Translations under genes and position numbers: made by a program | Source of the DNA: Planctomycetaceae bacterium | Lineage (GTDB): Bacteria; Planctomycetota; SZUA-567 | Assembly: GCA_021203245.1 (NCBI GenBank) | Contig: JAJQBO010000092.1 | Span: 1 to 64,000 of the forward strand | Reading direction: 5' to 3' | Length of the DNA stretch: 64,000 nucleotides | The notes under the pieces: model-generated | Told to the model about the DNA's origin: nothing | The model's input: only the letters and a program-made list of their open reading frames with translations | The model's database searches: none | Shown: positions 7,804 through 18,044 of the stretch, piece after piece | Layout: the number at the start of each line of letters is the position of its first letter | How positions within the stretch are numbered: position 1 is the first letter of the stretch

Positions 7804-9057
7804 ATGCGGAAAATAATCGTCCTGATAGTGCTTGTGGCGATCGTGGGCGCGGTCGGCTATAAATATTTCACCACCCGGGCGCAGGAACGGGCGCGGCGCG
7901 GGCGCGGCACCGGCGTCGTGGCGGTGGAGACAGCACTTATCCGGCGGGCCGACCTCGGCGACCGCGTCGTCTTTACCGGTTCGGTGAAGGCGGACGAACG
8001 CTACGACGCTGCGCCGAAAATTTCCGGCATCATCCGCCAAATTAACTTCAACGTCGGCGACATCGTCAACCGGGGCGAGATCCTCGCGGTCCTCGACGAC
8101 GACGAACACGTCCTTGCCGTCGAACAGGCCCAGGCCAAGCTGGCCGTCGCCAAGGCGAATGTCAACGACGCCAAGGCGCAACTGGAGATCGCCCGCCGCG
8201 ATTTCGAGCGCGCCTCCAACCTCCACCGCGAACGGGTGATGTCGACCCAGGAATTCGACCAGGCCGACGCCGTCATCAAGGCGCGCGAGGCAACCTACGA
8301 GACCGCCGTCGCCAACCAGCGGCTGACCGAATCCGAACTGCGCACCCGCGAAGTCATCCTCGGCTATACCCGCATCCGCGCCGAATGGGACGCGGGCGGC
8401 GACCAGCGCGTCATCGGCCAGCGCTACGTGGACGCGGGCGCAATGGTGGCGGCGAACACCCCCATCATTTCCGTCCTCGACATCGACACGGTGCGGGCGG
8501 TGATTTCGGTCAGCGAAAAGGAATATCCGAAAATCGCCCTCGGCGACAACGTCGTCGTGACGACTGACGCCTTCCCCGGCAGGCAGTTCGCCGGCGTCGT
8601 CGCCCGCATTCCCCAGGAGCTCGGCACCTATACCCGCGAGGCCGAGGTCGAGGTCGCTGTCCAGAACGCCGACCGCGCCCTCAAGCCGGGCATGTTCGTC
8701 CGCGCCAACATCGAGTTCCACCGCAGCGACGGCGCGACCGCCGCCCCCCTCGAGGCGGTCGTGCGCCGCGACGACGGCAGGCGCGGCGTCTACCTGGTCG
8801 ACGAATCCCGCACCAGCGTCACCTTTGAACCCATCACCGAAGGCATTCGCGACGGATCGCTTGTCGAACTCGTCGACGGCACCTCGCTGATCGGCCGCGA
8901 GGTCGTCACCCTCGGCCAGCACCTCCTCAAGGACGGCATCTCCATCCGCGTCGCCGACGCGAACGCCATGGCCCAGCCCGGCCGCGTCGCGCCGGAAAAA
9001 CAACCCTCCCAGCCCGGCGCGAGCCTCGGCGTCGACAAGGCGGTGGGCGGCGCATGA
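7804..9057 (+). CDS. RND efflux membrane fusion protein (HlyD/AcrA-like)
   Basis: N-terminal TM, VVFTGSVKADERYDAAPKISGIIRQINFNVGDIVNRGEILAVLDD lipoyl half-motif; overlaps start of RND permease. Confidence 0.85.
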   Translation: MRKIIVLIVLVAIVGAVGYKYFTTRAQERARRGRGTGVVAVETALIRRADLGDRVVFTGSVKADERYDAAPKISGIIRQINFNVGDIVNRGEILAVLDDDEHVLAVEQAQAKLAVAKANVNDAKAQLEIARRDFERASNLHRERVMSTQEFDQADAVIKAREATYETAVANQRLTESELRTREVILGYTRIRAEWDAGGDQRVIGQRYVDAGAMVAANTPIISVLDIDTVRAVISVSEKEYPKIALGDNVVVTTDAFPGRQFAGVVARIPQELGTYTREAEVEVAVQNADRALKPGMFVRANIEFHRSDGATAAPLEAVVRRDDGRRGVYLVDESRTSVTFEPITEGIRDGSLVELVDGTSLIGREVVTLGQHLLKDGISIRVADANAMAQPGRVAPEKQPSQPGASLGVDKAVGGA

Positions 9058-12000
9058 ACATAACCAGGTTCGCCATCCAGCGGCCCATCTTCACGACGAT
9101 GGTGACGCTCATTGTCGTCATTATCGGGTCGATTTCGCTCCTGCGCCTCCCCATCGACCTGATGCCCGACATCACCAACCCCGTCGTCAGCATCCGCACC
9201 GAATATGAAAACGCCAGCCCCGAGGTTATCGAGGAACTCGTCACCCGCCCCATCGAAGAGGCGATGGCCGCCGTGCCGGGCGCGGAAGAGGTGACGTCCA
9301 ATTCGTCCGAAGGCAACTCTAACGTCACTGTCAAGTTCACCTGGGGCACCGACATCGACGTCGCCGTCTCCGACGTCCGGGACCGCATCGACCGCGTGAT
9401 CAACCGCCTGCCCGACGACTGCGACCGCCCCACCCTGTTCAAGTTCGACTTCGCCTCCATGCCCATCGTCTTTATGGGCATCTCGAGCGAGATGGACCCG
9501 GTGGAGATGCGCCGCCTCATTGAAGACCAGATCAAGTTCCGCATTGAATCCATCAACGGCGTCGCCTCCATGACCATCTTCGGCGGCCGCGAGCGCGAGG
9601 TGTCGGTCGACGTCGACCCCTACCGCCTCCGCGCCATGGGCGTTTCGCTGGACCGGGTCATGACCGTCCTCAAGCGCGCCAACATCAACCGTCCCGCCGG
9701 CTATGTCGACCAGGGCAATTTGGAAATCACCATCCGCGCCCCGGGTGAATTCGCCTCGGTCGAAGAAATCCGCGAAACCGTCATCGTCGTCCGGGACGGG
9801 GTTCCGGTGCGGATCGGCGATATCGCCACGGTGACGGACGGCATGAACCGCATCCGCCGCGTCGCCCGCATGGACGGGCAGGACTCGGTCCGCATCGCCG
9901 TCATGCGCCAGTCGGGCGCAAACACGGTGCAGGTCGCCGCGCGGGTGGTGGAAGAGGTCGAGCGGCTCCAGGCCGAATACCACAACCTGAACATCAAGAT
10001 AATCGTCAACTCGGCAGACTACATCAACAACTCCATCGCCAACGTCTCCTCTTCCGCCCTGTTGGGCGGCGGGCTGGCCGTCATCCTGGTGCTCCTGTTC
10101 CTCCGGAACATTCTTTCGACCCTGGTTATCGCCATCTCCATTCCCGTCTCCATCATCGCCACCTTCGCCGTCCTCTACCTGGACGGCCTGACCCTCAACC
10201 TGATGACCCTGGGAGGCCTCGCCCTCGGCGTCGGCATGCTGGTGGACAACTCCATCGTGGTGCTGGAAAATATCTACCGCATCTACGAGGAAGAAGGGCT
10301 TGAAGGCGCCGACGCGGCGGAAAAAGGCACGAACGAAGTGTTCGCCGCCATCATCGCCTCGACCCTCACGACCCTCGTCGTGTTCCTGCCGCTGACCTTC
10401 ATCGAAGGGATGGCGGGGCTGCTGTTCCGCGAATTCGCGCTGGTGGTGGCGTTCTCGCTTATCTGCTCCCTCGCCGCCGCCGTGCTGCTAGTCCCCATGC
10501 TCGCCACCCGCATGATCCGGCTGCAACGGTCCGAGCCGAGAAAGGGTTTTGTCAAACACGCCTTCGACGCGAGCGAAGCCGGCTTCCGCGCCATGGAAAA
10601 CGAGTACAAGGCCGCCATCCACTGGTGCCTTGAACACCGCTGGACCACCCTTGGCGTCACCTTCCTGCTGCTCCTCGGATCAATCACCCTCATGGGGAAA
10701 ATCGACGTCGAGCAGATGCCGAAGACGGACGAAGGCAACCTCCAGGTCAACGCCGAGATGGAGGTCGGCATCCGCCTCGGCCTCATGTCCGAGCGGATGC
10801 GCGAACTGGAGATGATGATTATGTAAAACATCCCCGAGGTGCGGGCCATCATCTCCAACGTCGGCGGCTCGTCCTGGCGCGGCGTCGCCACCAACCAGGC
10901 CGGCATCAACGTCCGCCTCGGCACCCGCCTCGAACGCCAGCGCCTTGGGCAACGCTCCACCGAGCAGGTCGCGCAGCAACTCCGGCGCATGTTCGCCGAC
11001 GTGCCGGGCATGGAAATCCGCGTCGCCGAGGGCCGCTCCTTCGGCCGCGGCGGGATGGGCGGCTCGTCCGAGCCGGTGGAAATCGATGTGCGCGGCTACG
11101 ACATGAATTTGTCGCAGGAAATCGCCCACCAGGTCCTGTCGATCGTCAGGGGCGTGCCGGGCGTCGTCGACGCCCGCATCACCCGGGAAGGCCGCATGCC
11201 CGAAGCGCAACTGCGCATCGACCGACGAAAAGCCGCCGATCTCGGCCTGTGGGTCGAGGACATCGCCACCTTCCTCGAAATCTGCATGGCGGGCAAAACC
11301 GCCGCCGAGTACCGCGTCGACGGCAAGGAATATCCCATCGAAGTGCGGCTGGTGAATTCGGAGAAAATGACCCTGGACGAGCTCCTCAGCCTGTCCATCA
11401 CCAACGTCGACGGTCGGCAGGTGTCGCTGCGGAACGTCGTCTCCATCGTCGACGAAAAAGGCCCCACCGTCATCGAGCGGAAAAACCAGCAGCGCGTCAC
11501 CTCCATCCGCGCCGCCCTGTCGGGTGAGCGCGCCCTCGGGTCGGTCATGGACGAACTCAAGGAAGCGCTGCGGCTCATTCCCATGCCGAACGGTTTTATC
11601 ATCGAGTACGGCACCGAATACCAGGACCAGACCGACATGATGCAGGACCTCGTCTTCGGCGTTATCCTCGCGCTGGTCCTCGTCTACATGGTCATGGCCT
11701 GCCAGTTCGAAAGCCTCCGCGACCCGTTCGTCGTCATGTTCTCGGTGCCGCTGGCCGCCATCGGCGTCCTCACCATCCTGTTCATGACCAACACCACCAT
11801 CAACCTCCAGTCGATGATCGGCTGCATCATGCTGGGCGGCATCGTCGTCAACAACGCCATCATCCTGGTGGATTACGCCAACCTGCTGCGCCGCCGCGAC
11901 GGCTTCAAAGTCCGTAACGCCCTCGAGGAATCCGGCCGCCGCCGCCTGCGGCCCATTCTCATGACCGCCCTCACCACTATCCTCGGCCTGGTGCCGCTGG

Positions 12001-12179
12001 CCCTGGGCTGGGGCGACGGCGGCGAAGCGCAAGCGCCGATGGCGCGGGCGGTGGTGGGCGGGCTGACCACCTCCACCCTTATCACCCTGCTGGTGGTGCC
12101 GGTGGTGTACTCGCTTATCGAAACGCGGCGGGAAATCGAGGGGAGAACCAGCAAGCGGCTGCAAGCCGTCAAGGACTAG
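9054..12179 (+). pseudogene. RND efflux permease (AcrB/MdtB-like) interrupted by an in-frame TAA
   Basis: ORFs 9054..10826 and 10839..12179 are in the same frame and form one RND permease; TAA at 10824..10826 (ATG ATT ATG TAA AAC ATC CCC GAG) separates them. Confidence 0.85.
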
Positions 12180-15761: not shown

Positions 15762-17921
15762 CTATTTGTTCGCAGCCAGGGTCTTGTCGCGGTACTCGGC
15801 CCACTGCTTGTCGGAAGTGACAAACGAGAACCTGCCGCGAAGGTCCAGGAACAGGCGCCAGATGTCGCCGCTCAGGCGGTTGATGAGCTTCAACCGCACC
15901 AGGTTGTGGAGGAAGTCGAACATGTGGACGTAAAACACTTCCGATTCGCCCGATTCCATCCCGCGCGAGCGGTCGGTGGATTCCTGAATCGTCCGCAAGC
16001 CTTCGAGCAGACGCGCGAGATCGACCAGGTGATCGGCGACTTCGGGACGGCGCAGCGCCTGGTTCTGGTAGATCTTCCGCATCAGGCTGCCGGCGGTGGC
16101 GCTGGCTTCGCGAAGAAGGGCGCTGGCGACATCGACCGCCTGGACGAGATTGTAGGTCGACAGCGCGGTCTCGAACGAGACGATTTCCGCCTTCTGCGGC
16201 GCGACCGCGTTGGGTCCCTTGACGCCCGCCGCCTCGCGGCCGAGCGACTTGAGGGCGTCGTCGGGATCCTCCTGGCCGAGGGCAGCCATGAGGGAGGCGC
16301 GGAGATTCGCCAAAACCGGCACCTGGTCCTCGCCCACCTGGAGACGGTCGACCTGCTTCAAGGCCTCGTGCGCGCCGCTCGTTCTGGCCTCGAGTTCCGA
16401 CTCCAGCCGGCGCACCAGCCGGTGCAGTTCGTCGATAAACAGCGACGACGCCTGACCCGACGACTGGGACTGCATGGCCTGGATTTCCTTCTCGCGGTTT
16501 TCCAGGGCGCGCTGGATGCGGAGGCGTTCCATCCGTTCCGACTCGACCTCGTTCTTGAGGCGGTCGACCTCGAAGCGGACGCGGCGGCTCTCGATATCCA
16601 CCCCGGTCGCCTGGTTGCGGGCGCGGGTGAGTTCGTCCTTGAGCGCTTCCGATTCGGCCCCGAGCAGCTTGACCCTGCTCTCGAGTTCGCGAATCTTGGC
16701 CTGGTAGGTGGTCTCGAGCGTGCGGAGCGATTCCTCGCTCGCGACCTTGCCGCCCTCGACCTCGCCAAGGCGCATCCGCAAGTCGTCGACCTGCGCGGTC
16801 AGGGCTTCCTTTTCGGCCTGCAGGCCGGAGCGGCGGCGCTCTTCCGCGAGGGCGCGGGAGCGCAGTTCCTTTGCTTCCGCGTCGGCGGCGATCCACGCCT
16901 GCATATAGCCGTGGGCTTTTTCCGACATGGCGGTCAGGAGGGCGTTGATCTGGTTGGCGACGCTTTCCACCTCGCCGGCGCCGTAGAGGACCGAAAATTC
17001 CTTGCGCGCTCCGGCGGCGTTGGCGATGTCCGCCGCCGACGGCTGGGGCATGGCATGGCTCTGGGGCGGCGGCACCGACGCGATGACAGACGGCGGTTCG
17101 GGCGGCGGCGGCACGGCGGCCGCCTGGGCCTGGGCCAGTTCCAGCGATGCGTGGGGGCTCATGACCACCGTCGCCTCGGGTTGAATGTCGGTATCGGGCT
17201 TCGGCTTGGGGGGAGGCGGCGGCGGGGCGGCTTCGGCGACCTGGCGAAGCAGCTCTTCCATGTCGATATCGTCGACGTTTGTTTCGGAGGCGTCCGCGCC
17301 CCCGCTTTCGCCTGCGTCCGCCGCTGCGGCGGCGGGTATCTCCGGTTCGGCGGCGGCGGCTGTCTCCTGCTCGATGGAGGAAAGGAGTTCGTCGAGGTTG
17401 TCGGCTTCACCCAGCGTGTCGTCCTGGGCCGCCTCGGCTGCCTGGGCCGCTTCGGCGGCGTTGAGGGCTTCTTCGACCGGGTCAGGCTCGGCCGGTTCGA
17501 GATCGGGTTCCGGCACTGCCTCGGTTTTGGATGATTCGGCCTCGACAGCGCCGAAAAGCGCGTCGAGATCGTCCTGGCTGGCCGAGCCGGTGTCTTCTTC
17601 TTCCACCGCGGATTCCACCGCGGGAGCGGGTTCGTCCGACCCGCCGACAGCGGCGAACAGGGCGTCGATATCGTCCTGGTTGGCGACGCCCGCCTCGTCG
17701 CCGCCCGCCGTTTCGTCGGTGGCTGGCGCGGGCGCGGGTTCGGCCGGACCGGCGGCATCGTCGACGCCCGCCGCGGCGAACAGGGCGTCTATGTCGTCCT
17801 GGCTGGCCGGACCGGTGAGATCGGCCGGCGGCTGCGGCGTCGGGGCCGCGGCGGCATCGTCGTCGCCGCCCAGGCCGCCCGCAAGCAGTTTATCGATGTC
17901 GTCCTGGTTGAAATCGGCCAT
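15762..17921 (-). CDS. Coiled-coil protein with N-terminal array of FliM/FliN-like QDDIDALF motifs
   Basis: MADFNQDDIDKLLAGG, ASQDDIDALFAAAG, ANQDDIDALFAAVG, ASQDDLDALFGAVE, DNLDELLSSIE, NVDDIDMEELLRQVAE followed by a long heptad-rich region. Confidence 0.75.
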   Translation of the reverse strand: MADFNQDDIDKLLAGGLGGDDDAAAAPTPQPPADLTGPASQDDIDALFAAAGVDDAAGPAEPAPAPATDETAGGDEAGVANQDDIDALFAAVGGSDEPAPAVESAVEEEDTGSASQDDLDALFGAVEAESSKTEAVPEPDLEPAEPDPVEEALNAAEAAQAAEAAQDDTLGEADNLDELLSSIEQETAAAAEPEIPAAAAADAGESGGADASETNVDDIDMEELLRQVAEAAPPPPPPKPKPDTDIQPEATVVMSPHASLELAQAQAAAVPPPPEPPSVIASVPPPQSHAMPQPSAADIANAAGARKEFSVLYGAGEVESVANQINALLTAMSEKAHGYMQAWIAADAEAKELRSRALAEERRRSGLQAEKEALTAQVDDLRMRLGEVEGGKVASEESLRTLETTYQAKIRELESRVKLLGAESEALKDELTRARNQATGVDIESRRVRFEVDRLKNEVESERMERLRIQRALENREKEIQAMQSQSSGQASSLFIDELHRLVRRLESELEARTSGAHEALKQVDRLQVGEDQVPVLANLRASLMAALGQEDPDDALKSLGREAAGVKGPNAVAPQKAEIVSFETALSTYNLVQAVDVASALLREASATAGSLMRKIYQNQALRRPEVADHLVDLARLLEGLRTIQESTDRSRGMESGESEVFYVHMFDFLHNLVRLKLINRLSGDIWRLFLDLRGRFSFVTSDKQWAEYRDKTLAANK

Positions 17922-18044
17922 CAGCCCCCCGTCCTCTTTGCAGCATGGCGGCCCCCAGATTTCTGCCACCGAATAGAAACAAATTCGGAACTATCTTACC
18001 CAAATCCAAGCCCCGATGCAACATCGACTTGCAAACCCGGCGGG

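Follow-up and report, generated by a model that had tools for sequence, protein, structure and literature searches.

In the usual view CheY-P diffuses as a signal, and each FliM (or FliM plus FliY) reads it with a single docking peptide. Chemotaxis has been little studied in Planctomycetota. The N-terminal peptide of FliM is a known docking element for CheY-P, and CheY is the established partner of the FliM/FliY motif (PMC9126983). In the E. coli complex, Q8 of FliM contacts V108 of CheY and D12 contacts K119, while I11 and L14 pack against I95, A99 and Y106 of CheY (PMC3774744). The same face of CheY is bound by a helix of CheZ (PMC3774744), which is present in one copy at the C-terminus of a protein with a catalytic four-helix bundle. 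In Epsilonproteobacteria the localisation of CheZ is described as dependent on a further protein, ChePep (PMC7750401).

We analysed a stretch of 64,000 nucleotides from a Planctomycetaceae bacterium (the window; contig C177 of a 4.09-Mb assembly, 88.8% complete), for which an original prediction had described six tandem motifs of the FliM/FliN type on a coiled-coil scaffold. All six strings were found in place, in one 719-codon reading frame (Table 1). A longer form of this frame, 15762-17969 on the minus strand, begins with a GTG at 17969 that is not conserved among relatives. The ATG at 17921 is preceded by AGAGGA and its position is common to the orthologs, and it is likely to be the start; the N-terminus then reads MADFNQDDIDKLL. 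Four of the strings, all in the N-terminal region, closely match QDD[IL]D[AK]L[LF]. The two divergent strings are weaker candidates, as they contain no Q and are not conserved as motifs across orthologs; AlphaFold places predicted helices at both of them too.

Table 1. Coordinates of the array gene and its parts in the window, and of the array genes of family f15
Feature	Position	Strand	Remarks
Array protein, coding sequence	15762..17921	-	719 aa plus stop; ATG start at 17921
Motif 1, NQDDIDKLLAGG	17874-17909	-	at the very N-terminus, like that of FliM/FliN; predicted helix aa 6-17
Motif 2, SQDDIDALFAAAG	17766-17804	-	predicted helix aa 41-51
Motif 3, NQDDIDALFAAVG	17643-17681	-	predicted helix aa 82-93
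Motif 4, SQDDLDALFGAVE	17541-17579	-	predicted helix aa 117-127; copy present in only some orthologs
Divergent string LDELLSSIE	17370-17396	-	no Q; motif not conserved
Divergent string DDIDMEELLRQVAE	17232-17273	-	no Q; motif not conserved
Disordered Pro/Ala/acidic linker, aa 237-315	16977..17213	-	pLDDT mostly <50
One long helix (probably a coiled coil), aa 317-526	16344..16973	-	pLDDT mostly 75-95
Conserved all-helical C-terminal domain, aa 580-717	15771..16184	-	no known family
f15 array protein	L151:119-2089
f15 array protein	L152:5306-7066
f15 array protein	L153:6097-7836
f15 array protein	L183:10352-12613
f15 array protein	L187:1040-2764

The array is far beyond chance. When the residues of the first 250 amino acids were shuffled 20,000 times, the mean number of motifs was 5e-5 and the maximum was one, against the four observed. 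As a DNA pattern, Q[DE][DE][IL][DE]xL[LF] has six matches in the 4.09-Mb genome, four of them within the array gene, and a reversed control pattern has none. Two other loose pattern matches, on contigs C51 and C267, do not represent N-terminal motifs and are apparently fortuitous.

In the same genome, FliM and FliN both have the motif at the N-terminus (MPDVLSQSEVDALL and MADEMSQDDIDALL, respectively), as do those of related genomes in similar form, and the array proteins open in the same way. We built a profile from 14 FliM/FliN N-termini. Among 66,763 windows from proteins other than the array proteins, only three scored above 15 bits and all three were FliM or FliN; because FliM and FliN of the window genome themselves went into the profile, the separation of the array motifs is the informative part of this test. 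Among the windows tested, FliM, FliN and the array proteins were the only ones to score above 15 bits. The array motifs also fit Q-x-[DE]-[IVL]-D-x-L-[LF] at the CheY-contact positions (contacts from PMC3774744). The pattern used for counting copies forces Q and D, so variability was taken from a count that tolerates one deviation: in the resulting 76 near-motifs the positions of D12, L14 and L15 never deviate, and that of Q8 deviates in nine, mostly degenerate strings. The CheY-contacting positions are the least variable in the arrays. The original assignment of the motif to the FliM/FliN N-terminal type is well supported by the same-genome N-termini and by the profile.

AlphaFold2 run on 13 orthologs, the source of the helix and disorder boundaries, predicts a disordered acidic N-terminus that carries the motifs as short helices within low-confidence linkers, followed by a helix of about 210 residues and a helical C-terminal domain. 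The predicted coiled coil of about 500 residues was therefore overstated; the models suggest one long helix and a separate domain. Modelled alone, the C-terminal part reached a pLDDT of 82.5, and a fold search with this model gave no match at E<=0.001 in the PDB and viral libraries. A PDB sequence search with the coiled coil and C-terminal domain returned chance coiled-coil matches only. In Pfam and NCBIfam the array protein had no match above the curated cut-offs, and the weak ones below them were of the coiled-coil type. No transmembrane segment was found in a hydropathy scan. Profile searches detected no receiver domain in the protein, and no FliMN_C domain (PF01052) either in it or elsewhere on contig C177.

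The array protein thus resembles FliM/FliY in the CheY-contact residues, in the N-terminal first copy and in the helix prediction, but it carries 2-10 copies instead of one, has neither the FliM middle domain nor FliMN_C, and bears the motifs on a coiled-coil carrier. With CheZ it shares the principle of a short helix on a flexible linker; no CheZ profile (PF04344) matched it, and CheZ identity was rejected. ChePep can be likened to it by description only, as another lineage-specific chemotaxis accessory outside the core set; FliM-type motifs in ChePep are not reported in the literature searched. In the open-licence literature that we searched, the string SQDDIDALF was absent and no tandem array of FliM-type motifs on a non-motor scaffold was found. 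Relative to that literature, the motif is already known and the tandem array on a non-motor scaffold is new.

Orthologs were identified in 17 of the 18 genomes of one planctomycete order, the exception (G008) being a genome only 61% complete; contig ends truncate some of the copies. One ortholog (L060, G003:C365) is split between two reading frames at about 12290, close to where the C-terminal domain starts. When 296 genomes from across the phylum were searched with a profile, no convincing homolog turned up outside the order, only four weak matches in the coiled-coil stretch. The orthologs are 33-90% identical overall, and the 13 near-complete ones carry 2-10 motif copies. The first copy is always N-terminal and usually reads QDDIDKLL; the remaining copies are mostly QDDIDA[LM][LFI]. 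Mean pair identity among the 13 was 0.88 in the columns of motifs 1-3 and 0.27 in the linkers. Compared with its nearest relative, the window gene differs in 13 of 32 motif codons, only two of the changes altering the residue, whereas in the linkers 139 codons changed, 56 of them with a change of residue. This pattern in the alignments shows purifying selection on the motifs and drift in the linkers.

We looked for candidate partners in the genome. A lack of CheY-like receivers would have refuted the original prediction, but about 40 receiver-domain matches were found, including one canonical CheY (C181:2008-2346). The latter is identical to E. coli CheY, whose numbering is used here, in 61 of 122 residues; its best PDB match, 3gwg, is annotated as a CheY homolog and is independent of that comparison. 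D57, T87, A90, K92, Y106, V108, K109 and K119 are kept, I95 is replaced by V, and three FliM-contact positions differ (K91E, A99I, K122P). A cognate CheY with an apparently compatible face, retaining most FliM-contact residues, is present in the same genome. There are also eight CheW-domain matches, FliM, FliN and a FliY-like protein that weakly matches CheX, and every genome examined in the order has FliMN_C domains. That the window itself contains no flagellar gene, as remarked on earlier, says little because the genome is that of a flagellated and chemotactic organism.

On balance, the array protein is probably a scaffold on which several copies of a receiver-domain protein dock, the most likely partner being phosphorylated CheY. 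As a short linear motif, each QDDIDxL[LF] element would become helical on entering the alpha4-beta5-alpha5 groove, like the FliM N-terminus, and flexible linkers of about 25-35 residues would allow several CheY-P molecules on one chain. The coiled coil may oligomerise or space the chains, and the C-terminal domain may anchor or oligomerise the assembly. Binding would presumably depend on phosphorylation. The likely effect would be that CheY-P is held, buffered or concentrated at a distance from the C-ring, whose FliM and FliN bear this peptide too and would be competitors of the array; the protein, in capturing CheY-P or another receiver multivalently, could act as a sink that lowers free CheY-P, a buffer that stores it or a relay that brings it to a site. 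Counted against this reading are the confinement of the array family to one order, the three deviating FliM-contact positions of CheY, the large number of other receivers, the lack of a conserved link to che or fli genes and, in the f15 lineage described next, a motor motif that differs from that of the array and a neighbouring receiver that does not resemble CheY.

A strict motif search across 393 genomes of the phylum uncovered another cluster of array proteins, in family f15, which belongs to a different branch. Like the window protein, the f15 proteins carry the motif array (4-10 copies) with its first copy at the N-terminus. No similarity to the window protein was found in sequence comparison; the C-terminal half is unrelated and consists of one hydrophobic or transmembrane segment and a TPR-like region, and the gene lies in an operon with receiver and histidine kinase genes. 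Of the five loci with enough upstream sequence, four (G276, G299, G218 and G123, not G206) have a receiver-domain gene upstream of it, either adjacent or, in most, separated by one small unassigned gene, three further loci (G152, G180 and G320) being outside this count for too little upstream sequence on the contig. A histidine kinase gene follows in several loci and MotA/MotB genes in G320; upstream, sigma-70-family and HDOD genes occur in G218 and G123 and CsrA in G218. FliMN_C proteins were present in 10 of the 11 f15 genomes checked. The f15 FliM reads LSAEELDALL, with Ala in place of the usual Gln, and the motor motif in this family therefore differs from that of the array.

The position of the f15 array beside a receiver gene supports the idea of a receiver hub, as do the motif type and the receivers present in the window genome; of that original idea, binding of CheY itself stays putative. 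We read the f15 array, by association, as convergent evolution of a receiver-docking array, the alternative being that a shared array was shuffled onto a new chassis. We suggest tentatively, with somewhat less than even confidence, that Planctomycetota evolved at least twice, on unrelated chassis (a cytosolic coiled coil and a membrane-anchored TPR-like protein), FliM-peptide arrays that catch phosphorylated receivers outside the motor. A natural, order-wide array of 2-10 copies, apparently reinvented elsewhere, would tune the buffering, localisation or cooperativity of CheY-P through copy number, and the orthologs are a ready set of variants for how valency shapes response-regulator signalling.

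The f15 loci also bear on the partner. The receiver protein adjoining the f15 array does not resemble CheY and possesses a C-terminal region of its own; together with the roughly 40 receiver domains of the window genome, which make a partner other than CheY possible, and with the lack of linkage of the array gene to che or fli genes, this would fit docking of a different receiver, outside chemotaxis, through the same groove. We consider this unlikely, as the array motif is nearly identical to that of FliN and FliM in the same genome, and for the FliM/FliY motif CheY is the partner that has been established (PMC9126983).

It is less probable again that the protein mimics FliN/FliM and binds another shared flagellar partner, as an assembly factor of the C-ring or export apparatus. 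Motif 1 lies at the extreme N-terminus exactly as in FliN, whose start the first 25 or so residues resemble, and in G002 (L053, G002:C365) the array gene, 9005-11176, is located about 5 kb from a mot-fliL-fliN operon. This proximity was seen in one genome only, the FliMN_C domain is missing, and CheY is the sole documented partner of a FliM-type peptide that we found in the literature searched. In the window genome, the array gene and the mot-fliL-fliN genes are on separate contigs.

Slightly more doubtful still is a CheZ-like phosphatase, in which the docking peptides would bring CheY-P to a helical domain with catalytic activity. No CheZ is present in 21 related genomes, the C-terminal domain has conserved polar residues, and E. 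coli CheZ is also helical, with a linker that leads to a CheY-binding helix at its end (PMC7750401); against this, besides the missing profile match, no D-x3-Q signature was recognised in a comparable hairpin, and the FliY-like protein with its weak CheX match offers an alternative phosphatase. A low-complexity repeat expansion with no docking role, which the variable copy number and the near-identical units of some arrays (G007) might suggest, is very improbable given the selection on the motif residues while linkers drift and the second, unrelated array in another family.

The array gene is preceded by genes for a DUF4340 protein, a glycosyltransferase and an AMP-binding enzyme and followed by histidinol dehydrogenase. 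We dropped the neighbourhood as a functional clue, since the order is not kept beyond close relatives and neighbours vary between genera; comparison across genera revealed no conserved linkage to che or fli genes.

A membrane protein encoded at G000:C152:1926-2858 (L142) has a single N-terminal QDELDAFF motif. Its counterparts read QDDLDAFF in G005 and DDGLDAFF in G001, the variant motif being kept in some close relatives only; this is possibly a third motif-bearing protein. Finally, we noticed that in the window an in-frame stop at 10824-10839 splits an RND-type transporter gene into ORFs 9054-10826 and 10839-12179, which may reflect either a true nonsense mutation or a fault in the assembly; in the close relative G005 the transporter is one ORF of 1041 aa (L064:3818-6940).
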